Source: Geitlerinema sp. PCC 9228
GTDB taxonomy: Bacteria > Cyanobacteriota > Cyanobacteriia > Cyanobacteriales > PCC-9228
Assembly (NCBI RefSeq): GCF_001870905.1
Contig: NZ_LNDC01000045.1
Coordinates: 1-45,585, forward strand
Reading direction: 5' to 3'
DNA length: 45,585 bases
How positions within the stretch are numbered: the first letter of the stretch is position 1; the number at the start of each line of letters is the position of its first letter. The notes beneath the pieces are model-generated. The model worked only from the letters and a program-made list of their open reading frames with translations. It did not search any database and was not told the origin of the DNA. This document shows positions 484-30,853 of the stretch, piece after piece. A program made the position numbers and the translations under genes.

Positions 484-1816
484 TTAATTGTAACTTGCCA
501 AAATAATATAGTCATCTAGAACATAAGAATAATCATAAGGAATTCCAAGATACTCTTGAGCTACTTTACTAATATACTGCTGTGCGGCTAAACGATCCGT
601 TGCATATTGTCGAAATCGCTTTCCCCCTAATGGTTGCCGACTCTCGGTAGAACTTAGACATTTATACCAGACTAGTTGCAATCCTAACTCTCCCAAAAAC
701 TTATTAACAATTTCTTTTTCTTGCTCTATATCATCGCTGGGGGATTCGTTGTAGATTCTGAATAGCTTTTTATTTTGTACAATTAGCAAAACATATCCAC
801 CCGGTTGGAGACAATTTTGAATAATGCGGGTATAATTATGCTTAGCATATACTTGAGAATCTGAATCGGAGAAAAAACAATGGCTAATAACAATAAAGTT
901 AAAAAATTGTTTGGGTAGTTTTTCAATTTCCAAGTCAGGTTTTAATATATCTTTCGTAACAAAACGAAAATAGGCATTGGGTGGCGATTGTTTTGATTCT
1001 ATATATTTCCGCCAAAATTGCAATCCTCGAAATTGAAACATTTTTTGTTTGTCTAGCGAAAAATAGCATATATTCGGACTGGTTTGAGTGCCAAATGAAA
1101 CGCTACTTTCTATCAATAAAGCTAAACCAAAAGCGACTGTTGCTGGACCGGCACCAATGTCAAGTATGGTAAGATTGGTCGGCAATAATTGGTTTTGGTA
1201 AATATAGTACCAAGCAATGTAGTTACAATAGACATTTTCGAGAAAATATCTAATTAAGTACGTATAGACGGTTGCATCATCGCCATCGTAATTGGGATCT
1301 TGACCTTTTTTAATTTATTTAAATCTAATAGCGCCGATTGTAATTTGTCGAAAAAATCTTCTTTTTTTTTGGCTCTTTAATTTGATTTACTTTATCTCTA
1401 CAAAATTGAGCTAAATTTCGATCGAATTTGTTAAAAACTTCATCCACTCCCGTACACTGAACCAAAGCTTCGTCAATTTCTTGTAAGTTCAAGTCCTGGC
1501 GAACCTGTTGGAGAAACTGTTGGTTAGGAAAGATGGTGGGAATCCCTGGTGGCAAAAAATCCAGGAGTTCTTGATAATCTTGAATTTTTTGGGAAAGTTG
1601 CGTATATTGATGCTGGAGCGCTTGAATTTCTTGTTTCTGTGCCTGGATGGTTTCCTGTGCTTGCAGTTTTTCGAGATAAACTTTTTGTAGCGGCGATAGC
1701 TTGGCACCTGAATTCCATATTTTTCCTAAAATTTCTCCGGCGCGGCGATCGCTTCCCCGACGTAATGCTAAGTTAAATTGTAGCGATCGCCACCAATTTA
1801 CCACCAGATTACTCAT
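484..1816 (-). CDS. SAM-dependent methyltransferase-like protein, split by a -1 frameshift
   Basis: Read as one gene it gives a protein of about 440 residues. The N-terminal part (1816 to about 1361) is helical and Gln-rich, consistent with a coiled coil. The C-terminal part holds a Rossmann methyltransferase motif I (LDIGAGPATVAFG) and ends at a TAA at 484-486. The two parts are in different frames: the upstream frame stops at 1325 after a short tail, while the -1 frame is open from before the A9 run (1362-1370) to 484 and continues the protein sensibly. The start chosen is the ATG at 1816, which overlaps the stop of the upstream radical SAM gene by 8 bp (ATGAGTAA), suggesting translational coupling. 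The substrate cannot be told from the sequence. The frameshift may be a sequencing or assembly error, a real mutation, or slippage. Confidence 0.6.
1361..1370 (-). other. A9 homopolymer containing a dnaX-type slippery heptamer
   Basis: On the minus strand the codons are CCA AAA AAA AAG, so the zero frame contains A AAA AAG, the classic -1 slippery heptamer. A -1 slip here joins the upstream frame to the methyltransferase frame. No strong downstream stem-loop was seen, which argues against efficient programmed frameshifting; transcriptional slippage or an indel remain possible. Confidence 0.45.
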
Positions 1817-2735
1817 AACCAAACCCCTGCCTGCCTTCTTGAATATCATCTACAATCCCTTCTAGTCTATCAAATAATCGCTTCTTAAACCCCTCATAGC
1901 ACTCATTTTCTTTATCGAACCACCAAGCATACCGACGTTTGATCGCCTCAGCTTCCTTACGAGTTACCGCCACCAGAGATTGATTTTTACTCGCATGAAA
2001 CTGTTGCACCACCACGCGATCCGCCACTTGCAAACGACGCATAAAAGCTGGTTCGTCTTCAAGCAACGTCGGCAACACAGGCGTCACCGTAATTGAAATC
2101 TTAGGAACGTATCCCCGCAACATATCAATGCCGTAGCGCAACTTTTCCGCAGCTTGAAACCTAGCCACAATGCTGGGTGTTTGGGGTTCAAAATCCCGGC
2201 GTACTTTCTCGCTACCGGTGGGAATGCTAATATTGACCCGCAACCGTTCCAACTGCTGCAACAAATCCAAATCCCTCACCAACATGGGACTGCGCGTCTG
2301 AATTACCAAAGTAGGTTGGTATTCTACCATCACTTCCAGCAACCGTCGCGTTATTTTATCCTTAGCTTCGATGGGTTGGTACGGGTCAGTTACCGAACTC
2401 ATGTAGATACTAGGCGGCGTGTCGGGACATTTTTCAAACCACTTAGCTAGTTCTTTGTCTAACTGTTGGGCAGCATTTTCCTTCACCAACACCCACTTTC
2501 CCCAATCGCGACGCATTCTGGGATTGGGACTAAAAGCCGCTGCATAGCAGTAGCTACATCCATACTGACATCCCCGATAGGGATTTAAGGTAAAATCGTA
2601 ACTCCCAATATATCCCGTAGCTTTTGTTAGGATTGATTGTGCCTTTTGGTTATAAACGCTGGCACTACCAAATTTTTCTCGCAAGCGAACGGTCGCTTTT
2701 TTGCTGGTATAGCCTTCGTATTCTGATTTGGCCAT
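1809..2735 (-). CDS. SPL-family (SplB-like) radical SAM protein
   Basis: About 308 residues from the ATG at 2735; a GTG at 2747 would add four residues. The CX3CX2C radical SAM cluster motif is present as CQYGCSYC (Cys56, Cys60, Cys63), preceded by LNPYRG, the arrangement found in the spore-photoproduct-lyase-like family (COG1533). Members bind a 4Fe-4S cluster and cleave S-adenosylmethionine, but most cyanobacterial homologs have no assigned substrate, and true DNA photoproduct repair should not be assumed. It lies downstream of miaE and overlaps the following methyltransferase-like gene by 8 bp, so the three genes are probably co-transcribed. Confidence 0.85.
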   Translation of the reverse strand: MAKSEYEGYTSKKATVRLREKFGSASVYNQKAQSILTKATGYIGSYDFTLNPYRGCQYGCSYCYAAAFSPNPRMRRDWGKWVLVKENAAQQLDKELAKWFEKCPDTPPSIYMSSVTDPYQPIEAKDKITRRLLEVMVEYQPTLVIQTRSPMLVRDLDLLQQLERLRVNISIPTGSEKVRRDFEPQTPSIVARFQAAEKLRYGIDMLRGYVPKISITVTPVLPTLLEDEPAFMRRLQVADRVVVQQFHASKNQSLVAVTRKEAEAIKRRYAWWFDKENECYEGFKKRLFDRLEGIVDDIQEGRQGFGYE

Positions 2736-2804
2736 GATGCTAGGCACCCAATAGGAGTTGGATCAATTGTCAAACTAGCAAGTTTTGGCAAAATCCTTGC
2801 CTAA

Positions 2805-3401
2805 CTAACTGTGAATCCGAGGTTGGGGATGCAGCGTAGATAAAATGTCGCTTTCTACCGTTGCCAACTCGTCGAGGCGTTGGTCTACTTCTTCCCGGGA
2901 AAAGCTTTCTACAGCCAGCAACCAAAATATGCGGTAGTGACGCGCTTGCGATGCCATCAATCCCCGATAAAATTTTGCTAGCTTTTCATCCGGACAATGA
3001 TAGCCTAGCAATCCCAATCTTTCGTGACTCCTGGCTTCGATTAACGCCGAAACCAGCAGAAAATCCAAACATCTTTTGGGTTCTTCCCCACGGACGTTTG
3101 ATATTAGCGTTTCGCCGTAGGGTGGGGGTGGTAGGGGTTTCAAGGGAATCCCTCTTTCTTGGAGGATTTGGTTGACCATGTCAAAGTGTTCTAGTTCTTC
3201 CCGCGCCAAGGCTGTTAGCTGGCGGACCAATTTTTCGTGGGAAGGATAGCGACAGATGAGTCGCAAGGCGTTTCCCGCTGCTTTTTTCTCGCAGTGGGAA
3301 CGATCGAGTAAAATGGTATCCATATTGGCGATCGCTTGGTCGATCCAATCGGTCGAAGTTGGTTGTTTGAGAACTTTAATTGTCGTTGCAGCAGCGTTCA
3401 T
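2805..3401 (-). CDS. miaE: tRNA-(ms2io6A)-hydroxylase MiaE
   Basis: 198 residues, the usual MiaE length. MiaE is a ferritin-like non-haem diiron oxygenase that hydroxylates the isopentenyl side chain of ms2i6A37 in tRNA. Candidate iron ligands by position are Glu38 in helix 1, the ExxH motif Glu69/His72 (REELEHFD) in helix 2 and Glu122 (IEARSHE) in helix 3. In helix 4 the expected ExxH reads SQARHY, so Gln152 stands where Glu is expected from the family pattern. First gene of a likely operon with the radical SAM gene (69-bp gap), divergent from the TetR gene. Confidence 0.88.
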   Translation of the reverse strand: MNAAATTIKVLKQPTSTDWIDQAIANMDTILLDRSHCEKKAAGNALRLICRYPSHEKLVRQLTALAREELEHFDMVNQILQERGIPLKPLPPPPYGETLISNVRGEEPKRCLDFLLVSALIEARSHERLGLLGYHCPDEKLAKFYRGLMASQARHYRIFWLLAVESFSREEVDQRLDELATVESDILSTLHPQPRIHS

Positions 3402-3571
3402 AAAAAAATGAGCTATCCTAACTTCGTCGCATTTCTTGCTTTCCGAGTGTAGCGCAACTCCAGTCCCTGCGATCGCTGGTTGCTAAAAAACCTCCCCATC
3501 TAGGATATGATGAAATTTGACTATTTGTTCCAAAATCGTTACCGTGGCAATAGAAAGCCCAGCAAGTAGCC

Positions 3572-4204
3572 ATGGCCAGATGCAAGCAGTTTGACCAACA
3601 AGCAGCCTTGGAACAAGCCATGGAAACCTTTTGGCGGTATGGCTACGAAGGTACTTCCATGGAAAACTTGCTCAAAAATATGGGCATCAACCGAGGCAGC
3701 TTGTACGATACTTTTGGTGGCAAGCGTTCCCTGTTTGAAAGTGCGTTGGCTTTGTACGAGGAAAAAGTCCTCGCCACCATTGTTCAGCCATTGGAAGCGC
3801 CAGATGCTGCCAAACAGGCTATTTGCGATCGCTTTGATGAAATTGTAGACCAAGCCGTATCCGACGTACAGCGTCGCGGCTGCTTGATTACCAACTCCGC
3901 CGTAGAACTGGCTTCCCACGACCCAGAAATTCAACAGCAAATCGCGCGGACTTTCGCACAAGTCAAACAAGCTTTTGAAAAAGCTTTGCTGCGTTCCCAA
4001 CAGCAAGGAGAAATTTCTCCCGAACTCGACCGAGAAGCGATCGCAGCTTTTCTAACTTCTAGCTTGCAAGGATTGCGCGTTATGTCTCGTGTCAATCCCG
4101 ATGTACAACAAATGCGCAATATGTTACCGTCACTTTGTCAGTTTTACGGTAAAACATCTGTGCCATCGAAGGAATCGTTTATTTTTTTACCCATTTTGAA
4201 ATAA
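3572..4204 (+). CDS. TetR/AcrR family transcriptional regulator
   Basis: 210 residues. The N-terminal 60 residues carry the TetR helix-turn-helix, with the signature run NMGINRGSLYDTFGGKRSLF. The rest is an all-helical ligand-binding domain that cannot be assigned a ligand. It is transcribed divergently from miaE, with 170 bp between them; no clear operator palindrome was seen there. Its regulated gene is unknown: the plus-strand genes downstream are separated by almost 500 bp of repeat-rich sequence. Confidence 0.88.
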   Translation: MARCKQFDQQAALEQAMETFWRYGYEGTSMENLLKNMGINRGSLYDTFGGKRSLFESALALYEEKVLATIVQPLEAPDAAKQAICDRFDEIVDQAVSDVQRRGCLITNSAVELASHDPEIQQQIARTFAQVKQAFEKALLRSQQQGEISPELDREAIAAFLTSSLQGLRVMSRVNPDVQQMRNMLPSLCQFYGKTSVPSKESFIFLPILK

Positions 4205-4231
4205 TTTTTTAAAAAGAAAAATTCTATAAAT

Positions 4232-4399
4232 TTGAGCCAAGAAATCGCCAATCTCAACCAACAACTAAACCCACAAATCCCCGAAGATTCTTAAGCCAAG
4301 ATGCAGCAAACCAAAGCCGAACTAGGAAAAGCCCAAATTGCCGAACAAAGCCTGCAAACTAAGGATACCGTTCCCAACAGAGAACCATCACAGCAGTAG
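4232..4399 (+). pseudogene. Possible remnant of a coiled-coil protein gene
   Basis: In one frame from a TTG at 4232 the reading is 20 codons (LSQEIANLNQQLNPQIPEDS), an in-frame TAA at 4292-4294, then 34 more codons rich in Gln, Lys, Ala and Glu up to a TAG at 4397. The heptad-like composition on both sides of the stop suggests a decayed coiled-coil gene fragment. It is too short to assign and could be chance. Confidence 0.3.
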
Positions 4400-4510
4400 G
4401 GAGATTTCCAAGTTTCTATGAGTTGCTGCAACGAACTAGCGCATAGCAAATCCGATTTATAAAGATCGCATTGTAGATAGAGACCGAATTGGGGGATTTT
4501 TCGGGTCTTC

Positions 4511-4620
4511 ACTTGCAGATTTTGTATTAAATTTGTAAGATGAAGCCTATTGTGGCAAACAAAAAAATGGATAGCCAAGAACAAACAGAAGCACAATTCC
4601 CTCGATGGAAAACGACACAA
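4511..4620 (+). repeat. Upstream copy of a 110-bp direct repeat (truncated 5' gene end)
   Basis: About 95% identical (5 differences by eye) to 4651-4760. It contains a start codon and about 27 codons matching the N-terminus of the gene at 4680, then breaks off at 4620. Confidence 0.9.
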
Positions 4621-4627
4621 GCCAGTG

Positions 4628-4652
4628 GTAGGGTGGGCATTGCCTACCCTAC
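4628..4652. repeat. Palindromic interspersed repeat between the two 110-bp copies
   Basis: GTAGGGTGGGC (4628-4638) pairs with GCCTACCCTAC (4642-4652) at 10 of 11 positions around an ATT loop. This resembles the GTAGGGTGGGC-type palindromes scattered through cyanobacterial genomes. Confidence 0.6.
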
Positions 4653-4760
4653 TTGCAGATTTCGTATTAGATTTGTAAGATGAAACCTATTGTGGCAAAG
4701 AAAAAAATGGATAGCCAAGAACAAACAGAAGCACAATTCCCTCGATGGAAAACCACACAA
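4651..4760 (+). repeat. Downstream copy of the 110-bp direct repeat
   Basis: Covers the last 29 bp upstream of, and the first 27 codons of, the gene at 4680. Its partner is at 4511-4620, with a 140-bp period that includes a 30-bp hairpin segment. Confidence 0.9.
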
Positions 4761-5771
4761 GAAATTTTAGAGAACAAGCTCAATGAAAGACACCATCATT
4801 TTATGCAAACCCTAGCAGAAATTCGCTCGGATGTAGCCAGTAACGACCTTAAACGTCGTCATGCTGCCATAGAAAAAGCGAAAAACAAGGGAATGCCAGA
4901 AGTAGAACCATTGGTCAATGTTGCCAACACAGTTAAGAAAGAACTCATTTTTCAGTTACTGGTTCCTGTTGGGCAAGCATGGGAAACGGAGACACTAGCT
5001 CTTGTTCCATTTTCTGAGTTACAGGAGCGTTTGCAAGATATTCTTCCGTGGTATATGGCAGCAGAAATAGCAAAAGCTTTCGAGCAAATACAAGAAGGTT
5101 TGGGGCATTTCAAACAATATAAAAAACCAAATCATTTTACCATTGGAGCCAAACTTCAAAATCGGAAAAAAATTCAAAAAATGGAACAAGTGGAAGAGGG
5201 ATTGATACGGCTTTACGCTGTCATGGGGAAGGCTTACTCTAAATTAGCCGAATTTAGCTTACAGTCTCAAGCTACCGAGCTGGAAAATGTATTGCAAAGT
5301 TTGGTCCGCCAACAAGCCGATAATATTAGAAATGTACTGAGAGATAGGCATCCCGATTGGTTTTTATCCGAAATGCCGCCAATAGAGTTGAACGATTGTA
5401 TTTCTGTTCTTGATTTTCAAACCCCAAAACTTTCAGAATCCTTTTTTGTGTTGCCCAATCCAGTTGAGGTCACGAAGAAAAATAAAAAAGAGCTAGCAGG
5501 AACTGTCCAAACTCGAACCCTCTTTAAAAAATCCAAAACCAAATTAATGTATAAAACTGTAGAAATTCAAATTACAAAAATTCCCTATGCTAACACGATA
5601 TTCCATGACTGGCGGGAGGAAATCGAACGGTCGCAAGTGCAACTATGGAATATAATTTGCCAATGTCTAATCGAACAATTAGCTCAAATGAATAGAAAGT
5701 TGCTGGAAAAAACCGAACAACAAGCGATCGCGCTGACAAATCTACCTATAGAAAGCGATCGCGATCGCTAG
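4680..5771 (+). CDS. Dynamin-stalk-like protein without a GTPase domain
   Basis: 363 residues, predicted mostly helical. It has no P-loop or other G motif. It is clearly homologous to about residues 450-785 of the GTPase encoded next (6053-8563). Matching blocks include HAAIEKAKNKGM versus QAAIDKAENQGM, VEEGLIRLYAVMGKA versus IEEGLIRLYTGMEKA, and IPYANTIFHDWREEI versus VPYFTTISDEWRQGI. Alignment offset is about 420 residues. The hydrophobic stretch of the GTPase at 704-716 is replaced here by a basic segment near TRTLFKKSKTK. It is inferred to be a partner or modulator that co-assembles with the GTPase, or a partial duplicate. 281 bp separate the two genes, so the GTPase may also have its own promoter. 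Confidence 0.75.
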   Translation: MKPIVAKKKMDSQEQTEAQFPRWKTTQEILENKLNERHHHFMQTLAEIRSDVASNDLKRRHAAIEKAKNKGMPEVEPLVNVANTVKKELIFQLLVPVGQAWETETLALVPFSELQERLQDILPWYMAAEIAKAFEQIQEGLGHFKQYKKPNHFTIGAKLQNRKKIQKMEQVEEGLIRLYAVMGKAYSKLAEFSLQSQATELENVLQSLVRQQADNIRNVLRDRHPDWFLSEMPPIELNDCISVLDFQTPKLSESFFVLPNPVEVTKKNKKELAGTVQTRTLFKKSKTKLMYKTVEIQITKIPYANTIFHDWREEIERSQVQLWNIICQCLIEQLAQMNRKLLEKTEQQAIALTNLPIESDRDR

Positions 5772-6052
5772 GGCAGGACTCATTTTACAATTTTATTTGT
5801 GGTTGTGCAACCGAATTTTGTATCAATTTAGACAGAAAGTAAGGATTTATCCTCCTCAAGGCACTCTAGTTTCTGGAAAACCTAGGATTTGCGGCTCAAT
5901 TGGTTTCATTGACCGTATGTATGGTTATGTATTGTTTAATTTTTTTATATGTTTCACTCTATCCGTAAGTAAAAAATTGTGACAATTTGGTTTAAAATCT
6001 CCGTTAAGTAGGGAAAAATGGAAAAGTCAGGTTAAAAAATTTACAGGTAGCG

Positions 6053-8563
6053 ATGGTAGATATAGCATCTTCCCCTACAGTTGAGAGCGTTTTAAGTCAT
6101 TTCCGGGACTTACTGCACGAACTAGGTCAGGCAAGCGTCGAGCTGGCGAATGCTTATCCAGATGTTTTTGACGACCCAGACTTAAAAGCTCAAGTGGCGG
6201 CGTTTCAGAAAGCATACCAAGAAGCGACGGAAAGATTGGAAAATCCAGCACTTGCGATCGCAACTTTTGGAACCACCTCCTCTGGCAAATCTACTCTCGT
6301 AAATGCTCTGGTTGGTCGTCGGGTAGCTCCCATGTTAAACCAACAAATGAGCGGTGGTGTCCTGAAAATGAAAGCTGCCGATACCTCGCGTTTGGCAATT
6401 GATGAGACAGAAGGCGCTCAGTGGGAAACGGGAGAATGGTCGGAAATCGATGATGGAGAGACTTATGACCGAGTTAAAAACGTCATGCTCTCCTATCACA
6501 ATATTGATTTTCAGCAACAAGAACAGGGGTGTATGGCACCGCAAATCACCGTTTACGGTCCCCTGTTGCCGGCTGACAATCGCTCTTTGCTGAATCTTCC
6601 CTCCAGTGTAGATGTAGAAATCATTGATTTGCCAGGACTAAAATCGGTGCAAGATGCGGCGAATCTGCGCGTGATTCAACCCCAAGTGGGAAAATCTTGC
6701 AGTTTGGTTGCTTTGGATTACGGACAAATTGACGAACAACACCGGCAACGCTTGCTGCAAGAATTAAAGGATGTGGTCAAGTCCTTAAATGGTCGTACGG
6801 ACTCAATGATTTTTGTTTTGAATCGCGTCGATTTGAGAACGGAAGACAATCCACCGATTGAAGAGGATATTCAAAGGTTAAAAGAAGAAATTCAATCCGT
6901 GCTATCCCTGCAAGAAACGCCAGATGTTATTCCATTAAGCTCTCTATTCATTTATTACGCGCAATGTGCTTGGGGAACGCAAGGTGGTCACCTTCAATCC
7001 GAAGTTGACCCAAAAACGCGGTTGGCATTTTTACAAGCCATGTTTCGCGACTGTGGAAAACTCATCAAGGAAAATACCAAGAGAGATAAAAATTGGCGTC
7101 GGTGGTTTCGAGACTTAGAAGATGATGTAGAAGATGGTGAATCTATCAGTGATGAAAGGATGCGGCATGTTCTTCACTACGCTCTAGAATGGAGTGGAGC
7201 GCAAAAACTTTGGGATACATTGCGATTTCGCGTTCAGCAGTCGTTTCCTCAACTTGTGATTCTACCCGCGTTAAATCCTGTATTTAAGAATTTTGATGTG
7301 TTGGTGGCAAAACTTGAGACCATTGCCAAAACTCGGAAAATTGATAACCAAGAAAAGGTAGAAGCACAATTAGAACGATTAAAAGCAGAGCGTCAAGCTT
7401 TACACAAGAATCTCGAACGATTGCGAAAGAAGTTTGAAGAATCAATTGCAGATATCAGACAAGATTTAAGAAGCGATAACGTTCAGCGCCGCCAGGCAGC
7501 TATAGACAAAGCTGAAAACCAAGGAATGCAGGGTTTTAAAAAGCTCCTGGGAATAGTCGATACTGTTAGAGACGAAATTAATTTTAAATTAATTATCCCT
7601 GTTGAGGAAGCTTGGTACGCTCAAGCATCACCTTATGATTTACAGGATCGATTAAGAGAAGTCGTTCATCCTTATATTGCAGAAGAAATAGGGAGAGGGT
7701 TTGACCGAATCAAAGACGGTTTAACACATTTTGAAATAGAAAGTACAGATGAAGACAATGAAGGCAATGAAGAATCGGGTTATTTTACCATTAGTGCGAA
7801 ACTGGAAGATTCGGACAAAATACAGCAGCTAGAGAAAATAGAAGAAGGATTGATACGGCTGTATACTGGCATGGAAAAAGCCTTATCTCAAGTAGCGGAA
7901 TTTAGCATCCAAGCTCAAGCCGCAGATTTAGAAAATATTTTGCAAGAATTTGCTAGGAAGCAAGCCGAACAAGTCGTTGCCGCCGTCAATGAAGAATTTC
8001 CCGAGTTGGGATTATCAAAAGCAATTCAAGCGGATTTGAATCTCATTCTTTCATCCAATCCTCCCGAACTTCCAGAGAATTTCTTTACTTTGGAGAAACA
8101 AATTCAATCAAAAACCGAAGTTAAAGAGGAACAAACGGGATGCGAAACCATAGAATATACCGAACTAGAATGGTTTTTGTTTATTATTCCATGGCCGGTT
8201 AAAAAACATGATATCAAACCTATTTACGACACGTTTGAATACAAGGCTTTAAAAGTTCCGTATTTTACAACGATTTCTGATGAGTGGCGGCAGGGAATTT
8301 TCAACTCGCAAGAGCAACTTTGGGATGAACTATCTGAATGGATCATCCAATACTTAGATGAAATCAGCGAACAATTTACGAAAGCTGTTGAGCAAGTTCT
8401 TGATTTAATGAATCGTTTTCTAGAAGAACAACTGAAAGTAATTGAAATGAAGTTTGAAGAAGAACAAAACCGTTGGCATCAAATTGAAGCGGAGAAAGAT
8501 TTGCTTGTCGAACTTCGGACTCAATTGCACAATCGAATTATAGGAGAAATAGAAGATGAGTAA
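6053..8563 (+). CDS. Dynamin-like large GTPase
   Basis: 836 residues. The N-terminal G domain has a P-loop (GTTSSGKST, 73-81), a G3 motif (DLPG, 192-195) and a G4-like motif (NRVD, 257-260), in the spacing of the dynamin_N family. From about residue 415 to the end the protein is long helices with coiled-coil character, as in the stalk of bacterial dynamin-like proteins. A short hydrophobic stretch (704-716, WFLFIIPWPV) sits inside the stalk and could be a membrane-contacting tip. Bacterial dynamins bind and remodel membranes on GTP hydrolysis. The stalk has a separate paralog immediately upstream, and the next gene overlaps by 8 bp (ATGAGTAA), which implies coupled expression. Which membrane process it serves is unknown. 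Confidence 0.82.
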   Translation: MVDIASSPTVESVLSHFRDLLHELGQASVELANAYPDVFDDPDLKAQVAAFQKAYQEATERLENPALAIATFGTTSSGKSTLVNALVGRRVAPMLNQQMSGGVLKMKAADTSRLAIDETEGAQWETGEWSEIDDGETYDRVKNVMLSYHNIDFQQQEQGCMAPQITVYGPLLPADNRSLLNLPSSVDVEIIDLPGLKSVQDAANLRVIQPQVGKSCSLVALDYGQIDEQHRQRLLQELKDVVKSLNGRTDSMIFVLNRVDLRTEDNPPIEEDIQRLKEEIQSVLSLQETPDVIPLSSLFIYYAQCAWGTQGGHLQSEVDPKTRLAFLQAMFRDCGKLIKENTKRDKNWRRWFRDLEDDVEDGESISDERMRHVLHYALEWSGAQKLWDTLRFRVQQSFPQLVILPALNPVFKNFDVLVAKLETIAKTRKIDNQEKVEAQLERLKAERQALHKNLERLRKKFEESIADIRQDLRSDNVQRRQAAIDKAENQGMQGFKKLLGIVDTVRDEINFKLIIPVEEAWYAQASPYDLQDRLREVVHPYIAEEIGRGFDRIKDGLTHFEIESTDEDNEGNEESGYFTISAKLEDSDKIQQLEKIEEGLIRLYTGMEKALSQVAEFSIQAQAADLENILQEFARKQAEQVVAAVNEEFPELGLSKAIQADLNLILSSNPPELPENFFTLEKQIQSKTEVKEEQTGCETIEYTELEWFLFIIPWPVKKHDIKPIYDTFEYKALKVPYFTTISDEWRQGIFNSQEQLWDELSEWIIQYLDEISEQFTKAVEQVLDLMNRFLEEQLKVIEMKFEEEQNRWHQIEAEKDLLVELRTQLHNRIIGEIEDE

Positions 8564-9449
8564 ATTTAGGGATGCTTTTGATAGACTAGCTCAAGATGAA
8601 AAGAATCAAGATATAGACGTTGCCATTCGCTCGTGGTGTGATGAAATTGGCTATGGAGATAGCTACCAACAGATAAAAAAAGAGTTATATAGTTGGATCG
8701 AAGATGGATGGGTTGTAGACAATATTAGCAAGATATACAACCAATTGCTTCGTTCAACAATGGAATATGGCAAAAAGAATACCCATATGCCTGTATTCCC
8801 TTTGTGGGATGATTTGGTAGGAAATCCAATTTTACAAGGTGCAAAAGATGGAATTGAAAGTATTGTTAAAGATACAAAAAATAGAATCAAAAAAATGGAT
8901 ATAAAATTAATATTGATAATAGCTTTTGTTTTAATGTCAATTGGACTAGTACTTTGGATATTGAAGTTAGAAAAAGAAAAAAAGTCCAATGACAAAAGGG
9001 AAATAAAAACTTTCCCATTAGAAATAGAAAGAGTACCACAAGGTTCCCAAGAAAAAACAATTTTTTTGTTAATTTTAGATGCGGAAGGAAGTAAAAAAAT
9101 TATTCCAAATCTTCGTTCTGAAGGTAAAATAACTTCCGAAATGGTCCATATTTTATCTTCTACTTCTATTATTATGGCTTTGTGGCAAGGAACTCAGGAG
9201 GAATTTACTAAAAAAGAACTGAATAAAAGCTTTGATTGCTCTCCAAACTCAGAAGTTTCTGAATATGATGTGTATGTCGTTGAAATTGAGCTAGCTAAAC
9301 GTGAAATAGAGTTTGAAAGGAATGCTAATGCGATGTCGCGATACAATGCTTTCAAAAGATTAGCGAATAAACCTGACTCCCACAAAATCACCAAAGTTTC
9401 CCAACGCCTTCCTAAAGAAGCCTACAATAATCCCCATCTCTATCGCTAA
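8556..9449 (+). CDS. Single-span membrane protein of the dynamin cluster
   Basis: 297 residues, not recognised. The N-terminal 115 residues are soluble and charged, with a Trp-rich stretch near 45-55. One strong transmembrane segment follows at about 117-136 (LILIIAFVLMSIGLVLWIL), flanked by KK on one side and KLEKEKK on the other. The C-terminal domain of about 155 residues is soluble, Lys/Glu-rich, and has no motif I know. Codon use is AT-rich compared with neighbours. Its start overlaps the end of the GTPase gene by 8 bp, so it is very likely made together with the GTPase and may tether it to a membrane; that role is inference. Confidence 0.7.
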   Translation: MSKFRDAFDRLAQDEKNQDIDVAIRSWCDEIGYGDSYQQIKKELYSWIEDGWVVDNISKIYNQLLRSTMEYGKKNTHMPVFPLWDDLVGNPILQGAKDGIESIVKDTKNRIKKMDIKLILIIAFVLMSIGLVLWILKLEKEKKSNDKREIKTFPLEIERVPQGSQEKTIFLLILDAEGSKKIIPNLRSEGKITSEMVHILSSTSIIMALWQGTQEEFTKKELNKSFDCSPNSEVSEYDVYVVEIELAKREIEFERNANAMSRYNAFKRLANKPDSHKITKVSQRLPKEAYNNPHLYR

Positions 9450-9471
9450 AATCGCTAAAGAGGAAAAAACA

Positions 9472-10740
9472 ATGCTAATTCCAACCAATCTAATCGCCGA
9501 TTCTGGAATTGTACAAGGATTAGCCAGCGGAGAGTTGGTTCGCTACGGTAGCGTAATTCGCCATGCTGCTGGTACAGTTCAAGGTGGTCAAATTGTTCGC
9601 CACCTGGCAGAAGCTCCCGGATTGACCAGTCAATTGGCAGGCTTGCCTTTTGCTCCCATTACTGGTGCAGCGAATTTTGTAGTTAACGGTGTTGGTCACG
9701 CTGTGACTTTCAACAAATTGGTGGGAATTGACCACCAATTGACTGGCTTGCAGCAAACAGCTTCCTCGATTCTTGGTGTCAGTCAAATTGCGGCTGGCGC
9801 TAGCGTTTTGGGGTTGGGGGTAAGTGTTGCCGGTTTTGCCTACATGGGTTCCAAACTCAATCAAGTGCAAAAATCGGTTGCCAATTTGCAAAAATCAATG
9901 GATGCGGGATTTCAGCGTGTTGAAGACCGTTTGGATAAAATTTCCGGTCAGCTTAATTATCTGTATTTGCTGGTGGAAGATAGTAGGGAACAACAAAAAC
10001 GCCTCAGCCAAGCGATTACCGAACTACACAAGGCTTTTTTGATTCAAAAAATTGCTAAACTGCAAGCGGAATTGGAAAGTCTGAAGCGATTTCCTGACGA
10101 TTCTCCGAAAGATGCGATTAATACGGCTACTGAGGTTCGTCTTTTTTTGGGAAATCAAGCGCTACAAACGCCTTGTGAATTGGAACCCAATACGCTGATG
10201 CTGGTGGATGTGGCGACGCAAGGTTGGGTGGCTGCGACGGCTACAGAAGCGCAACTTTTGTTGAGGCATGGCTATATTACAGATGCTAGAGAGGTTCTCG
10301 CTGAAACGGTTCCCCAGCTTCAGGAAAACGCGCAGCATTGGGGAGAAAAACTTTTAGAAAGCGATCGCGACGAACTCAATACTGCCTATCGCTTTGCCAC
10401 TCCCTACTTCCAAGACCATATTAGCAAAGAACGGGTGCAACGAATTGCGAGAATTTCTCAGCGCGATCGCGATCTTTCCCCGGAAAAAGCCTGGCAAAAA
10501 CAGCAAGATGCAGAAGTAGAAATGCAAATGAGTCGCACCAAGCCGCATTTGGACAAACATTGGCAATACCAGCAACTGGCTTTGGCGGAATATCTCGATA
10601 CCCTCAGCGAACTGGCTGCCAGACTCGACAGCCTGCTAGCGTTTGCTAAATTGTGCGAACGGCAAGGGGTGAAAAGCAGTCAGGAATTGCTACCCGGCAA
10701 CGATTGGGAATCGGGATTGTATCTGTTGCCAGCGGAGTAG
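9472..10740 (+). CDS. Protein with Gly/Ala-rich hydrophobic segment and coiled coil
   Basis: 422 residues, function unknown. Residues 1-90 are Gly/Ala/Val-rich. A glycine-rich hydrophobic run at about 98-125 (SQIAAGASVLGLGVSVAGFA) could insert in a membrane or pack as a helical hairpin. It is followed at once by an amphipathic coiled coil (about 126-195, with QVQKSVANLQKSMDAGFQRV). The C-terminal half is helical and soluble. A Shine-Dalgarno-like AGAGG precedes the ATG, and the gap to the previous gene is 22 bp, so it belongs to the same operon. The hydrophobic segment plus coiled coil is reminiscent of helical pore-forming or membrane-perturbing proteins, but that is a shape argument only. 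Confidence 0.65.
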   Translation: MLIPTNLIADSGIVQGLASGELVRYGSVIRHAAGTVQGGQIVRHLAEAPGLTSQLAGLPFAPITGAANFVVNGVGHAVTFNKLVGIDHQLTGLQQTASSILGVSQIAAGASVLGLGVSVAGFAYMGSKLNQVQKSVANLQKSMDAGFQRVEDRLDKISGQLNYLYLLVEDSREQQKRLSQAITELHKAFLIQKIAKLQAELESLKRFPDDSPKDAINTATEVRLFLGNQALQTPCELEPNTLMLVDVATQGWVAATATEAQLLLRHGYITDAREVLAETVPQLQENAQHWGEKLLESDRDELNTAYRFATPYFQDHISKERVQRIARISQRDRDLSPEKAWQKQQDAEVEMQMSRTKPHLDKHWQYQQLALAEYLDTLSELAARLDSLLAFAKLCERQGVKSSQELLPGNDWESGLYLLPAE

Positions 10741-13169: not shown

Positions 13170-16100
13170 TTAGAATTTCCCATCCAACGCCGCAACGCAA
13201 CGTTCGCAAATGGTGGGATGTTCTTGGGAAATGCCAACTTGGGTGGAATAGTTCCAGCAGCGATCGCATTTTTGACCGTCGGCTTCGGTAATGCCAACGG
13301 CTAGTTTGTCGGTTTCGCTGCGATAATCCAATTGTTGAATGGCTTCTGGCGAGGAAACCATTTCTACCTGGGAAACCAAGAACAAATAGCGCAGTTCGTC
13401 AACGCCGTTGGTTTGGGGTTTGGCTGGCTGTTGCGGTAGGGAGGTTGCGGTTTCGGTGGTGGCGGGTTCGCCGACGATTTGCTGTTTGGTGGTTTGGATT
13501 TTCTGTTGCAATGCCTGGCGATCGCGCGAGAATAGAAGATTGCGGACGACAAATACACCGCTGTATCCCAAGCCAATGAGTTGGAAAATGGCTGGCAATC
13601 CGGGAACTGTCGCGATCGCATTTAAAATACTAGCGGTCACTTTCAACACAATCCCCGCAGACAGCACCACTGCCGCTAAAGTTGCTCCTTTGGTGACCAC
13701 TGGCGACCAAACTTGCCAGGCAGTATTCAGCGCCGCAAAAAATGCATCCCATTCTTCCCTGGATTTGGGGAAAGTCTCAGGAAATTTCACATCGTCAACG
13801 GTCATCTCTTGGCTGACTTTGGCTGGGGATGGTTGGGGATTGGGTTCCGGTTGTGGTGAGGTAGCGGCAACTTGGTGTAACTCTTCCACCGCTTGACACA
13901 GTTGCGGGTCGCTCACATACAGCAAGGCTTTGGCATCTAAGGAAGCACCAATTTTCTTCTCGCTGCGTGCCGTTTCCAGGACTTTGTTGACTTCCATCCG
14001 AATTTGCCGTAATTTTTGCCAGCGGTCTGCCAGTTCTGGCTGGTTCCAGTGGGGTTCGGTATATACCCATCCCGACTCAAACACCGATTCTGCTGTGGTG
14101 GGATAGGGCAAATTCTGCCAAATATCTTCCGCCATGTGACACATCACTGGGGCAATGGAACGAGCTAAATTTTCCACCGCGATCGCCATTACCGTCTGAC
14201 AGCTGCGCCGCCGCCAGGAATCCGCCGCACTGATATACAGCCGGTCTTTCACCACATCCAAATAAAAATTCGACAGATCCACCACGCAGAAATTCTGCAC
14301 CATCTGGAAAAACCGGAAAAACTGATAGTTAGAAAACGCCGTGGTCACCTCTGCGAACACTTCGCTCATGCGATGCAGCATATAGCGGTCCAACTCCGGC
14401 ATTTCCTCGTAAGCTACCGCATGCTGGCTGGGGTCAAAATCGTGCAAGTTCCCCAACAGAAAACGCGCCGTATTGCGAATTTTCCGATACACATCCGCCA
14501 GCTGTTTCAGAATATTCTTCCCTAACGGCACATCCGAAGAATAGTCAACGGAAGACACCCACAAGCGCAACACATCGGCACCGTAAGGCGGGTCTTGTTT
14601 TTGATTGTTTCCACCAGCAATAACCACCTGGGGGTCGATAACATTTCCCAAAGATTTGCTCATCTTGCGTCCTTTTTCATCCAGAACAAACCCATGGGTT
14701 AGCACTGTTTTATAAGGAGAAATGCCATTGTTAGCAACACTGGTCAGCAAACTGGATTGAAACCAACCCCTGTGCTGGTCGGATCCTTCCAGATACATAT
14801 CCACCGGATAAGTTAATTCCTCTCTTTGTGCTGCCACAGCCGCCCACGAAGAACCGGAATCAAACCATACGTCCATGGTGTCGGTTCCCTTCCGGTAAGT
14901 GCGTCCGTTATTTCGGTAAGACTCCGGCAGCAGTTCTTCCACCGGCAGTTCCCACCAAGCATCGGATCCCCGTTCGGCAAAAATATTTTGCACGTGGGCA
15001 ATGGTTTCTTCCGTAAGCAGAGGTTCGCCGCTTGCTTCGTCGTAAAATACAGGAATGGGAACCCCCCAACTCCGCTGGCGGGAAATACACCAGTCGGACC
15101 GTTCCGCCACCATTGATTGAATGCGGTTTTTCCCTTGGACAGGAATCCACTGGACCTGTTCGATGGCTTGCAACACGGCTTCCCGGAAGCCATCCACCGA
15201 CGCAAACCACTGTTCGGTAGCGCGGAAAATGGTGGGTTTTTTGGTGCGCCAGTCGTAGGGATATTTATGGTTGTAGTCTTCTTCGTGTAAAAGAACGCCT
15301 CGTTCTTGCAAAGCATCGATGACCCCGCGGTTGCCATCTCCCAAAACGTTGGTCCCGGCAAACTCTCCCGCTTGTTCGGTAAAGTTGCCATGTTCGTCTA
15401 CTGGCGATAGGAGAGGCAAACCGTAGCGTTGCCCCACCTGAAAGTCTTCCAAACCGTGACCGGGGGCTGTGTGTACCAAACCAGTTCCGGATTCGGTGGT
15501 TACGTAATCCCCACCAATGACAATGGGACTGGTTCTTTCAAACACAGGATGCTGGTAGCTGCAATATTCTAACTGCCTTCCTGTGAGGGTTTCTTTCACC
15601 GTTAGCTGCCGCCCCATGACCTGGCTGAGGCGTTCTACTAGTTCCGCAGCTACAATTAAATACTGAAATTTTAGAGTCCCGGAACTGGAACGGGGGGCAT
15701 TTTGGTCGGACTCTGATGGGGAAGTTTCCCCAAAGCTTTTGCCGCCCGTGTCTTGGGACTGTTGGTTTTTCCTCCCCCCGACTTCGACGACGGCATACTT
15801 GAGTTCCGGGTTGACGCTGACCGCCAAATTTCCAGGAATGGTCCAGGGGGTGGTCGTCCAGATGGCAACCCCTAAATTGGGTAAATATGGAGATAGCTGT
15901 TCTTTGACCTCGGCGTTGAGTTCGGTAACCGCAAAAGCGGCATAAATGCTGCGGGAAATGTGGTTGTCGGGATATTCCAGTTCGGCTTCTGCCAAAGCAG
16001 TTTTGGAACTAGGACTCCAGTGAACTGGTTTTTTGCCGCGATAGATGTATCCCTTTAGAACCATCTGACCGAAAACGCCGATTTGGGCGGCTTCGTAAGC

Positions 16101-16589
16101 CGGCTTCAGGGTTAGGTACGGATTTTCCCAATCGCCCCACACACCGTAGCGTTGGAAGCCCTGTTTTTGCTCTTCTACAGTTTTTAGGGCAAAATCCCGC
16201 GCTTTTTGTCGCAGGGTCAAGGGGGTCAGTTGGGAACGTTCCGACGATTTCATTTGCTGCAGGACTTTTAGTTCAATGGGCAATCCATGACAATCCCATC
16301 CGGGGATGTAGCGAACTTTACGCCCTTGCAGCAGCTGGTAGCGGTTAATAATATCTTTGAGGATTTTGTTGAGGGCGTGACCGATATGTAAAGCGCCGTT
16401 GGCATAGGGGGGACCGTCGTGCAAAACAAATATATCCCCCGGATTGTTCTGGGACAATCGCTGGTAAATCTGCTTGTCTTCCCAAAACTGCTGGATTTCC
16501 GGCTCTCGCTTGGCGGAGTTGGCCCGCATGGAAAACGAGGTTTTGGGGAGGTTTACGGTGTCTTTGTACGAAGGTCCTGATTCAGTCAC
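13170..16589 (-). CDS. ileS: Isoleucyl-tRNA synthetase with CAAD membrane-anchor insertion
   Basis: 1139 residues, about 180 longer than usual bacterial IleRS. Class I signature HIGH is at 68-71 and KMSKS at about residue 640; the C-terminal zinc ligands are Cys1108, Cys1111, Cys1128 and Cys1131. Between the anticodon-binding region and the zinc domain, about residues 910-1060, lies an insertion: a Pro/Gln-rich linker, then a CAAD domain (about 934-1040) with two hydrophobic helices ([20 protein letters not shown] and the [19 protein letters not shown] region), then a second linker. CAAD is known to anchor cyanobacterial aminoacyl-tRNA synthetases to thylakoid membranes. A second, low-complexity Ser/Gln insertion is at about 270-310 in the editing region. 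It ends 8 bp from the convergent pentapeptide gene. Confidence 0.97.
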
Positions 16590-28234: not shown

Positions 28235-28852
28235 TGCCACAAGCAGTTCTAACGAAACTTGCAAAATAACAAAAATGTTTTCGTACGGTTTTGGGAGTTT
28301 TTGAGGGAACCATAAGTTTTCTCCTCTTTGAACTTGTAGATTGTTTCCATTTTTTCTAGAGGATTTTCTTTCAGTTTGCTTTTGTTTCCTAAAATTCTCC
28401 AGTGTGAGATGCGTTCCTAAAATGCAGCCAATCAGAAAGATTTTCTTGTTGGGCTTTATCTTTATAGAACCATACCATCTAAAAGTTAAAGAAAGTTTAA
28501 AAACGAAAATTTTTGCTGCGATTGCAGTTGAAAGGAGAGTTTCATGCGATCGCTTCTTATCTGCAAAAAAAACGAATAGCGATCGAAGCAGTCATATGTT
28601 GTCATAGCGATGGAGAAGCAATTGCGAGCGGTCAATTTTTCCAAATCAGGCAATCGGAGCATTGGCCAACCATATTCCACTTATCCGAACCAAAGATAAA
28701 AAATCTAAAAAAACAATAATTTATTTTCTAAAGTCCCCCAATTTCCCTGGTTGAGGCGCTTTGCGAATTGTCCCTACAAAAAATTTGGATTTCCGATAGC
28801 AGGCTTTCAGGCGTACAATAGAGAAGGAATCTGCGAACTTCGAGCCTGCCTT
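28235..28852. other. Intergenic region between divergent genes
   Basis: About 620 bp between the histidine kinase and carotenoid oxygenase starts. AT-rich; holds HIP1-like GCGATCGC near 28547 and a TTGAGGCGCTTTGCGAA repeat fragment near 28752. Small open frames here lack ribosome-binding sites and coding character. No structured RNA recognised. Confidence 0.5.
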
Positions 28853-30283
28853 ATGCCAACCTCAAACACCAACCAAACTGCTTGGGCAAGAGCGGTTCTG
28901 CCGCCAGGGGTAGAATTCCCCCCCACCGAACTCACCGTACTGTCGGGTTCGATTCCCCCAGGAATTCGTGGTTCTCTATACCGCAACGGACCAGCGCGCT
29001 TGCAGCGGGGAAAACGCCGCGTTGGTCATTGGTTTGACGGTGATGGGGCTGTATTGGGAGTTCGTTTTACCTCCGACAAAGCCATCGGAACCTATCGCTT
29101 TGTACAAACTGCCGGCTATCGCCACGAGGAACAAGCGGAAACCCTCTTGTACGGTGGTTATGGCATGCTGCCTCCGGGAAGTTGGTGGAATCGCTGGCGC
29201 TATCCCGTGAAAAATGTTGCCAATACCTCGGTTCTGGCGCTGCCGGATAAGGTGTTGGCGTTGTGGGAGGGGGGTCATCCCCATGCTTTGGACCCGCAAA
29301 CCTTAGAAACGCGCGGAACGGACGATTTGGACGGTTTGGCAGCGGAAGCGCCGTTTTCTGCCCATCCCAAACGCGACCCCCAAACGGGAGAGATTTACAA
29401 TTTTGGTGTTGTGTTTGGCAGGCAGCCTTCTCTCAACCTCTATCGTTGCAATGCAATGGGCAAAATTGTCAAGCAAAATGCTATTCCTTTGAGTGGGATG
29501 TCGTTGATTCATGATTTTGTTTTGGCAGGTCGGTATTTGGTGTTTTGTATACCACCTGTACGCTTGAAAGTTTTGCCGGTTTTACTAAAATTCATGACGT
29601 TTTCTCAAGCGATGAGCTGGCAACCGTCTTTGGGAACGGAGATTTTGGTGGTTGACCGGGAAACGTTACAGGAAACTTGTCGCTTGCAGGCGGAACCTTG
29701 GTATCAGTGGCATTTTGGCAACGGTTGCGAGGATGAAGGGGGCAATATTGTTTTGGATATGGTTCGTTATGAAGATTTCCAAACCAATCGTTACCTGCAG
29801 GAGGTGGCGACGGGAAATCCCAAAACCAAGGCGCGGGGCAATCTCTGGCAGCTACGTTTGTCTGTTCAAAAAGGTAAAGTGATTGAACTAACGCCCCTGT
29901 ACGATCGCACTTGTGAGTTTCCTTGCGTGGTGTCTTCCCAAGTGAGTCAGCCGTGGCGGTTTACGTATTTATCGGTTTTGCGTAATGAGGAGGATTTGGG
30001 TAAGGAATTGGTGGGTGGCGCGATCGCGCGGGTAGACCGTGGGGAAGGAAAATCGGTTACTGTGGCACTGCCGGCGGGGGATTATGCCAGCGAACCTATT
30101 TGTATTCCCGACCGCGATCGAGAGGAGCAAATGTGGTTGCTGGTGGTGGTTTACCGCAGCAGTTGCCATACCAGCGAACTGTGGATTTTGGATGCGAATC
30201 GCTTTGATGGCCATCCCGTTTGTCGTTTGCAGTTGCCTCGGGTCATTCCCATAGGATTTCACGGTACTTGGCAAGCTGATTGA
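28853..30283 (+). CDS. Carotenoid oxygenase (RPE65/CCD family)
   Basis: 476 residues from the ATG at 28853; an upstream in-frame start at 28751 falls in repeat-like sequence. The family fold is a seven-bladed propeller with four His residues holding Fe(II). Matching His-containing blocks can be seen: AHPKRDPQTGEIYNFG, SLIHDFVLAGRY, QWHFGNGCEDEGGN and the C-terminal IGFHGTWQ. The opening LRGSLYRNGPA-type segment (IRGSLYRNGPARLQRG) is also characteristic. Such enzymes cleave carotenoids or apocarotenals, for example to retinal in the Diox1 type. Substrate specificity cannot be read from the sequence. Cytoplasmic, membrane-associated. Confidence 0.93.
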   Translation: MPTSNTNQTAWARAVLPPGVEFPPTELTVLSGSIPPGIRGSLYRNGPARLQRGKRRVGHWFDGDGAVLGVRFTSDKAIGTYRFVQTAGYRHEEQAETLLYGGYGMLPPGSWWNRWRYPVKNVANTSVLALPDKVLALWEGGHPHALDPQTLETRGTDDLDGLAAEAPFSAHPKRDPQTGEIYNFGVVFGRQPSLNLYRCNAMGKIVKQNAIPLSGMSLIHDFVLAGRYLVFCIPPVRLKVLPVLLKFMTFSQAMSWQPSLGTEILVVDRETLQETCRLQAEPWYQWHFGNGCEDEGGNIVLDMVRYEDFQTNRYLQEVATGNPKTKARGNLWQLRLSVQKGKVIELTPLYDRTCEFPCVVSSQVSQPWRFTYLSVLRNEEDLGKELVGGAIARVDRGEGKSVTVALPAGDYASEPICIPDRDREEQMWLLVVVYRSSCHTSELWILDANRFDGHPVCRLQLPRVIPIGFHGTWQAD

Positions 30284-30853
30284 ACGCAAACAGCGATCGC
30301 TTTTTCTTATGTTGCTTGAAGATGGGAAATTGCTAAAAATCCTTATTGCAGACGGCATGTTTGCCGACAATATATTGGAAATATGTTAGTTTGTTATATG
30401 GTTTGTTCAACTCTTGCCAGTTACATGCCCAAAAGGTGAAATAAAACGTTGCCACTAAGCAATTAGAAAAGATTTTGACTGCAAAACTTTACGACCTGTA
30501 ATTTTTTTAATTTTTGTAAATTCTCTGCGGTATTTCGTTATATTTTGCACAAAAAATGTCAAGATCTAAAATAGAAGGTAAATCAAAGCAAATTGAAAAA
30601 AAAATCTATCGATGTTGGCTGGCAAGTGTTGCCTAAAATCCAGATTTTCACGCCATTTTGTTTTGATAATCGCGTCGTTATACCGTCCGGTTCCTCATTT
30701 GTTTTTGATTTAGAAGAAAAAAGCGTAGACAACCAAACCAAACCACCAAGACAACCATCCGATGGTTGTGGGTAAGGTGGGAAAGTTGGGAAAAAACATA
30801 CACAAGTAGGGTGCATTGGAAAGGATTGTTTGAGCGGCGGATAAGGAGTTTCC
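30284..30853. other. Long leader/intergenic region upstream of the photoreceptor gene
   Basis: 570 bp without a gene. A small hairpin CGGCA-TGTT-TGCCG lies at 30353-30366, and a strong palindrome at 30751-30769 (listed separately). AT-rich, with long A and T runs around 30500-30610. Confidence 0.5.
30751..30769. promoter_or_regulatory. 19-bp near-perfect palindrome, candidate operator
   Basis: ACAACCATC and GATGGTTGT form a perfect 9-bp inverted repeat around one C, about 85 bp upstream of the photoreceptor start. Flanking CCACC and GGTGG extend the dyad symmetry imperfectly. Its spacing suits a dimeric regulator, but it could also act as an RNA hairpin in the 5' leader. Confidence 0.4.

Follow-up and report, generated by a model that had tools for sequence, protein, structure and literature searches.

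Several described systems resemble the operon analyzed here. In the Juk system, JukB assembles into tetrameric pores at the phage vesicle, and phospholipases are also among the effectors (review PMC13282480). In B. subtilis, the dynamin DynA acts against phage and delays lysis by stabilising membranes (PMC8844932), while LeoBC is one dynamin split over two genes (PMC4159319). We have studied a stretch of 45,585 nucleotides from the cyanobacterium Geitlerinema sp. PCC 9228 (contig NZ_LNDC01000045.1, in its entirety referred to as the window; the host assembly comprises 4.8 Mb over 223 contigs) that contains an operon of three genes, encoding a dynamin-like GTPase, a linker protein and a third, effector-like protein. 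To judge from their sequences, there is about an even chance that this is a membrane-attack operon in which the GTPase activates an effector that damages membranes, probably in defence against phage. The three-gene composition was not described in the literature searched, which comprised few subscription papers and not the primary paper on Juk, so that the same statement in a preliminary description of the window stands.

That description had read four consecutive open reading frames, all on the forward strand (4680–5771, 6053–8563, 8556–9449 and 9472–10740), as one four-gene dynamin-like membrane system. The reading frames are located where it had placed them, with an 8-bp overlap between the GTPase gene and that for a 297-residue protein, and with the gene for a 422-residue protein beginning 22 bp further on, and the characters it had assigned to their products were likewise recovered. 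The 836-residue protein is a dynamin-like GTPase (Dynamin_N, expectation value (E) 4e-11, with G motifs), the 297-residue protein contains a single strong transmembrane segment (residues 118–136), the 422-residue protein shows a glycine-rich hydrophobic stretch at about 106–124 followed by a long predicted helix, and the 363-residue product of the first gene, described as devoid of a G motif, gave no GTPase match in Pfam. The central idea, in which a dynamin-like GTPase forms the basis of a conserved membrane module with a plausible role in defence, is retained. The four-gene composition is not, as the 363-residue protein is private to one genome and absent from 48 related operons. A JukB-like domain, lipase variants and a sister class of paired GTPases are additions to the earlier picture.

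A conserved three-gene operon

Loci were collected from the neighbourhoods of GTPase homologues, by scanning some 85,000 species genomes and from further genomes. Besides the window, GTPase, linker and third gene were found together in 48 distinct loci, with identical order and strand in 48 of 48 and median intergenic gaps of 33 and 15 bp, the linker invariably being the second gene. The expected recurrence in a constant order thus held for these three, while the 363-residue gene was found nowhere else. Distances between loci were correlated across the three proteins (Mantel r of 0.90, 0.72 and 0.60), and none of 2000 permutations yielded values as high. Among 292 cyanobacterial genomes, the close GTPase subfamily is present in 14 and the full-length C-terminal domain of the third protein in 13, all of which coincide; the fourteenth genome (G247) holds only a remnant of the third gene. 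The real unit consists of three co-inherited, tightly packed genes for a GTPase, a linker that in most cases is a membrane protein, and the third protein.

The operon is patchily distributed, with a match to the C-terminal region of the GTPase in 45 of 391 genomes of the order. One copy resides on the conjugative plasmid pTCL26-01_C of Nostoc sp. TCL26-01, beside DUF499, DUF1156 and SNF2 genes, and an assembly locus (L087) extends the range to Myxococcota. The GTPase gave no match in phage records or viral contigs, in a viral scan that used narrow patterns from one sequence. Broken or interrupted copies occur in loci L054, L061, L064, L097, L099 and L216. In L064 (4298–9308) an insertion of about 2.5 kb splits the GTPase gene, with linker and effector genes intact, and in L216 (genome G342, 974–9218) a TPR-repeat-like gene lies between the GTPase gene and a linker remnant, followed by transposase-like reading frames, and no effector gene was seen.

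The first operon gene (6053–8563, forward strand) encodes the GTPase P0002, with a GTPase domain at residues 1 to about 405 and a helical, stalk-like region at 406–836, a label that we derive from its position and helical character. The Dynamin_N match scored 43.7 bits against a cut-off of 27, and the PADLOC profiles for LeoBC and LeoA matched with E values of 8e-15 and 2.1e-11. The G motifs GTTSSGKS, DLPG and NRVD are present in P0002 and in nearly all intact homologues, and are invariant in our alignment (A1). A sequence profile searched against the PDB retrieved no solved structure for the stalk-like region, and the matches to 2j68 (E 0.065) and 9em9 (E 0.28) were weak and restricted to the GTPase domain.

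The third protein, the linker and a proposed function of the operon

The third gene (9472–10740, forward strand) encodes an effector-like protein of 422 residues in which a JukB-like hydrophobic domain (about 11–138) is followed by a coiled coil and by a helical C-terminal domain (160–422) that is exclusive to the operon. The majority of the loci have such a hydrophobic JukB-like domain at the N-terminus of their third protein. The JukB profile matched the window protein with an E value of 1.3e-10, a Geitlerinema protein with 1.2e-11, the Myxococcota protein (L087) with 1.6e-9 and, behind a lipase domain, the protein of locus L073 with 1.4e-4. In a reverse scan with this profile 16 of the 292 cyanobacterial genomes were matched, 11 of these matches being the third gene of the operon, and none of 14 control genomes. 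Standalone JukB-like proteins lacking a GTPase or linker partner were seen in three further loci (L182:7553–8803, L183:7794–9002 and L184:6875–8155). They share a motif of the type GxxxRxGGVIR...IVxHL and a hydrophobic segment, and their C-terminal part differs from that of the operon protein. By eye, the gene in L182 lies 3' of genes that look like type I restriction-modification genes, and the one in L184 adjoins chlL/chlN-like genes.

In four loci (L057, L073, L082 and L090) a class-3 lipase (Lipase_3; E values, ranked by significance, of 1.2e-31, 4e-29, 3.6e-28 and 1e-25) is fused to the N-terminus of the third protein, and the motifs for the Ser/Asp/His triad, GHSLGG, NDP(V/I)P and DHxxE(K/R)Y, are in place in every variant. 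The JukB-like part is retained behind the lipase in L073; in L057 the glycine-rich hydrophobic stretch is unrecognisable in the alignment and a profile of the N-terminal part gave no match. Mapped onto a tree of C-terminal domains, the lipase carriers require two changes, though they may share a single origin. Effector modules typically swap or add activities in this way, here two that attack membranes, while one C-terminal domain is conserved. The C-terminal domain was found at full length in 13 of the 292 cyanobacterial genomes, always adjoining the GTPase, and the few other matches are fragments. On contig C55 of genome G116 (28770–33329), some 3.5 kb separate an orphan fragment of the domain from a JukA-like gene. 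From this sequence evidence, the chance that the third protein is a membrane effector appears to us somewhat greater than one half.

The linker or adaptor of 297 residues (8556–9449, forward strand) comprises a helical N-terminus, the transmembrane helix at 118–136 and a conserved alpha/beta domain at the C-terminus (about 166–297). Its AlphaFold2 model reached a predicted local distance difference test score (pLDDT) of 82, with values mostly above 93 in the C-terminal domain, and a transmembrane helix is predicted in 27 of 38 homologues. A linker-like protein also occurs in a sister class of operons (L103–L145, for example L140:7920–13555), where it is placed between a GTPase and a second GTPase; its relatedness to the linker was weakly detected, with E values down to 2e-10. 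In a locus from Competibacteraceae (L088, 7812–14445) a GTPase of the P0002 subfamily and a linker are followed by a convergent second GTPase gene on the opposite strand. The linker is therefore a component of a broader type of dynamin operon, where, as judged from the sequences, the third position is taken by a second GTPase or by a putative membrane effector. The sister class is common in cyanobacteria and methanotrophs and shows a weak relation to LeoA/LeoBC. In L088, the first GTPase and a 242-residue protein at the far end both start with a similar cysteine-rich motif (CPxC...CxxC).

As a dynamin-like GTPase is joined to a protein that resembles an anti-phage pore former or carries a lipase, the operon looks like an undescribed membrane-attack system. 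In the mechanism that we propose, the GTPase would assemble on a membrane altered by infection, be it the injection site, a phage vesicle or a damaged bilayer, and its GTP-driven assembly would be relayed by the linker to the third protein at its C-terminal domain, and the third protein would then form pores in that membrane or hydrolyse its lipids and so abort the infection. We count in favour of such a function the unity of the operon, the similarity to JukB, the lipase fusions, the patchy spread, the plasmid copy, the broken copies and the precedent of DynA. The defence role of the operon is what we infer from these analyses taken together.

Several observations weigh against membrane attack. 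PADLOC families with a match numbered 65 among 136 neighbours of the operon versus 133 among 127 control genes, by a crude count, and the flanks in the window are ordinary genes. The enrichment near defence genes for which the preliminary description had called was thus not seen, and a location in defence islands was not supported by this count. The JukB match is partial, covering positions 16–129 of 323 (about 115 positions) in a glycine-rich hydrophobic region that is prone to chance similarity, and AlphaFold2 produced no confident fold for it (pLDDT below 50). Structure searches with the third protein and with the linker yielded no confident match to a solved structure, rows of low Z or low probability having been set aside, and 11 of the 38 linker homologues have no transmembrane segment.

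The best of the alternatives, which we consider less likely, is a function in membrane maintenance or stress, where membranes would be remodelled or repaired by GTPase and linker, with the third protein as a structural membrane partner or, in the lipase variants, a lipid-remodelling enzyme rather than a killer. The bacterial dynamins DynA and LeoABC serve in membrane stabilisation and vesicle release, the lack of defence genes among the neighbours would be in line with such a role, and the linker is common to the paired-GTPase operons, which have no such effector. The presence of the operon in only 13 of 292 genomes, its carriage on a plasmid and its broken copies argue for membrane attack instead, as do the fusion of a lipase to the same C-terminal domain and the similarity to a known pore effector.

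The 363-residue paralogue

The first of the four reading frames (4680–5771, forward strand) encodes a GTPase-less paralogue of the stalk-like, C-terminal half of P0002 and stands outside the conserved operon. In BLASTP its residues 1–347 aligned with residues 421–781 of the GTPase (35% identity, 60% positives, E 3e-71), so that the alignment reported earlier is real, its range of 450–785 being slightly off. A standalone counterpart was found neither in 391 genomes of the order nor in the 60 closest relatives or the 48 related operons; all other matches in those relatives and genomes lie inside GTPase reading frames or broken GTPase genes. Within its own genome the only matches of the protein, apart from itself, were the GTPase and a copy of its first 28 codons. 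A tree built from 43 C-terminal regions places it as sister to its own neighbour GTPase (support 100/98), on a branch that, at 1.47, is seven times longer than that of the GTPase (0.21). These comparisons identify the gene as a partial duplicate of the GTPase gene that is specific to this lineage and not part of the conserved system.

The alternative, a four-component system in which the 363-residue protein is a dedicated, co-assembling regulator, seems improbable to us. Its reading frame is intact, it keeps 32 of 69 family-conserved columns as well as an LFKKSKTK-like family motif, and the differences from the GTPase gene at codon positions 1, 2 and 3 (0.44, 0.28 and 0.56) follow a coding pattern; most of its divergence therefore arose under coding constraint. 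These features speak against a classical pseudogene, and of the earlier suspicion that the protein might be a decaying fragment restricted to one strain, the restriction to one genome was confirmed and the decay was not supported. Against a dedicated regulator, however, stand this very restriction, the sevenfold branch length, the 54 of 69 columns retained both by P0002 and by the Geitlerinema relative L066, the gap of 281 bp to the GTPase gene and the signs of local rearrangement upstream. The 5' end of the gene is present a second time in the DNA, as a truncated copy at 4540–4623 (forward strand, 28 codons, 93% identical to residues 1–28), and between it and the gene lies a near-perfect palindrome of 23 bp, TAGGGTGGGCATTGCCTACCCTA (4629–4651), which matches itself on both strands where 0 such matches are expected by chance and is possibly the scar of a small repeat element. 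Together, copy and palindrome demonstrate a rearrangement at 4540–4651, a local duplication or the scar of a repeat element.

Two histories of the partial duplicate can be considered. We favour one in which the GTPase gene was duplicated and the GTPase part was lost late, the similarity to the GTPase extending about five codons 5' of the ATG, across a TAG stop; the retention of a stalk-only protein also fits. At most, the protein would have a local, modulating role, in which it could co-assemble with the stalk.

Elsewhere in the window, the reverse strand at 13170–16589 encodes an isoleucyl-tRNA synthetase-like protein with a hydrophobic segment inserted near the C-terminus, which we take to resemble the membrane-anchoring CAAD domain of cyanobacteria. 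A scan for promoters and terminators gave results near the shuffled expectation and was uninformative.

Relation to known systems

Bacterial dynamins are common and their roles are mostly unclear, and a pore-former or lipase partner would give one of them a direct, testable function in which GTP-driven assembly leads to membrane damage. The operon is a variant among dynamin operons and may, with fair probability, constitute an immune system in its own right. To the more specific proposal, that a dynamin-like GTPase acts as sensor and, via the linker, sets off either a JukB-like pore or a lipase of class 3 at the membrane as a prokaryotic parallel of Mx, GBP and IRG proteins, we assign a probability somewhat short of even. 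If protection against phage proves true, membrane-attack effectors of the Juk kind would be linked to a second kind of sensor, the operon would be a bacterial counterpart of the antiviral GTPases of the dynamin superfamily in animals, and the sister operons with a second GTPase at the effector position would be candidates for the same logic.

The likeness to Juk lies in the N-terminus of the third protein, which matches part of the JukB profile, and in the lipase variants, which would parallel the phospholipases among the Juk effectors. In contrast to Juk, no JukA adjoins the operon, a dynamin-like GTPase and a linker stand in its place, and the C-terminal domain (160–422) of the third protein is outside the JukB match. 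A profile search for JukA gave no match in P0001–P0003. A Juk variant with JukA acting in trans from elsewhere in the genome is very improbable: although the third protein has a JukB-like domain and a JukA-like gene is present in 16 of 16 operon genomes, such a gene also occurs in 16 of 16 comparison genomes (the third gene of the operon being found in none of them and a distant GTPase match in one, G066), never adjoins the operon, and the first gene of the operon encodes a dynamin and not JukA. Canonical Juk with JukA was rejected, as all cyanobacteria tested carry JukA-like genes, which are not linked to the operon. The gene, of about 290 residues and mostly single-copy, was found in 32 of 32 genomes, and the JukA model of PADLOC may therefore catch a general gene here.

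With LeoABC and other paired dynamins the operon shares a GTPase that matches the LeoBC and LeoA profiles, and the sister class carries a second GTPase. It is nevertheless not LeoABC, since it encodes one GTPase and not two, a pore- or lipase-like protein taking the place of the second, a partner that LeoBC does not have. In the way it would function, the operon resembles parts of both Juk and LeoABC. A dynamin-like GTPase at membranes during phage attack is the known role of DynA and the one that we suppose for the operon; DynA, however, is a single protein, whereas the operon has an apparent membrane-damaging partner. BDLP1 of Nostoc punctiforme and SynDLP (Slr0869), finally, have in common with P0002 a cyanobacterial dynamin GTPase domain, as reflected in the weak profile matches to 2j68 and 9em9, but the GTPase of the operon belongs to a different subfamily with an operon of its own.

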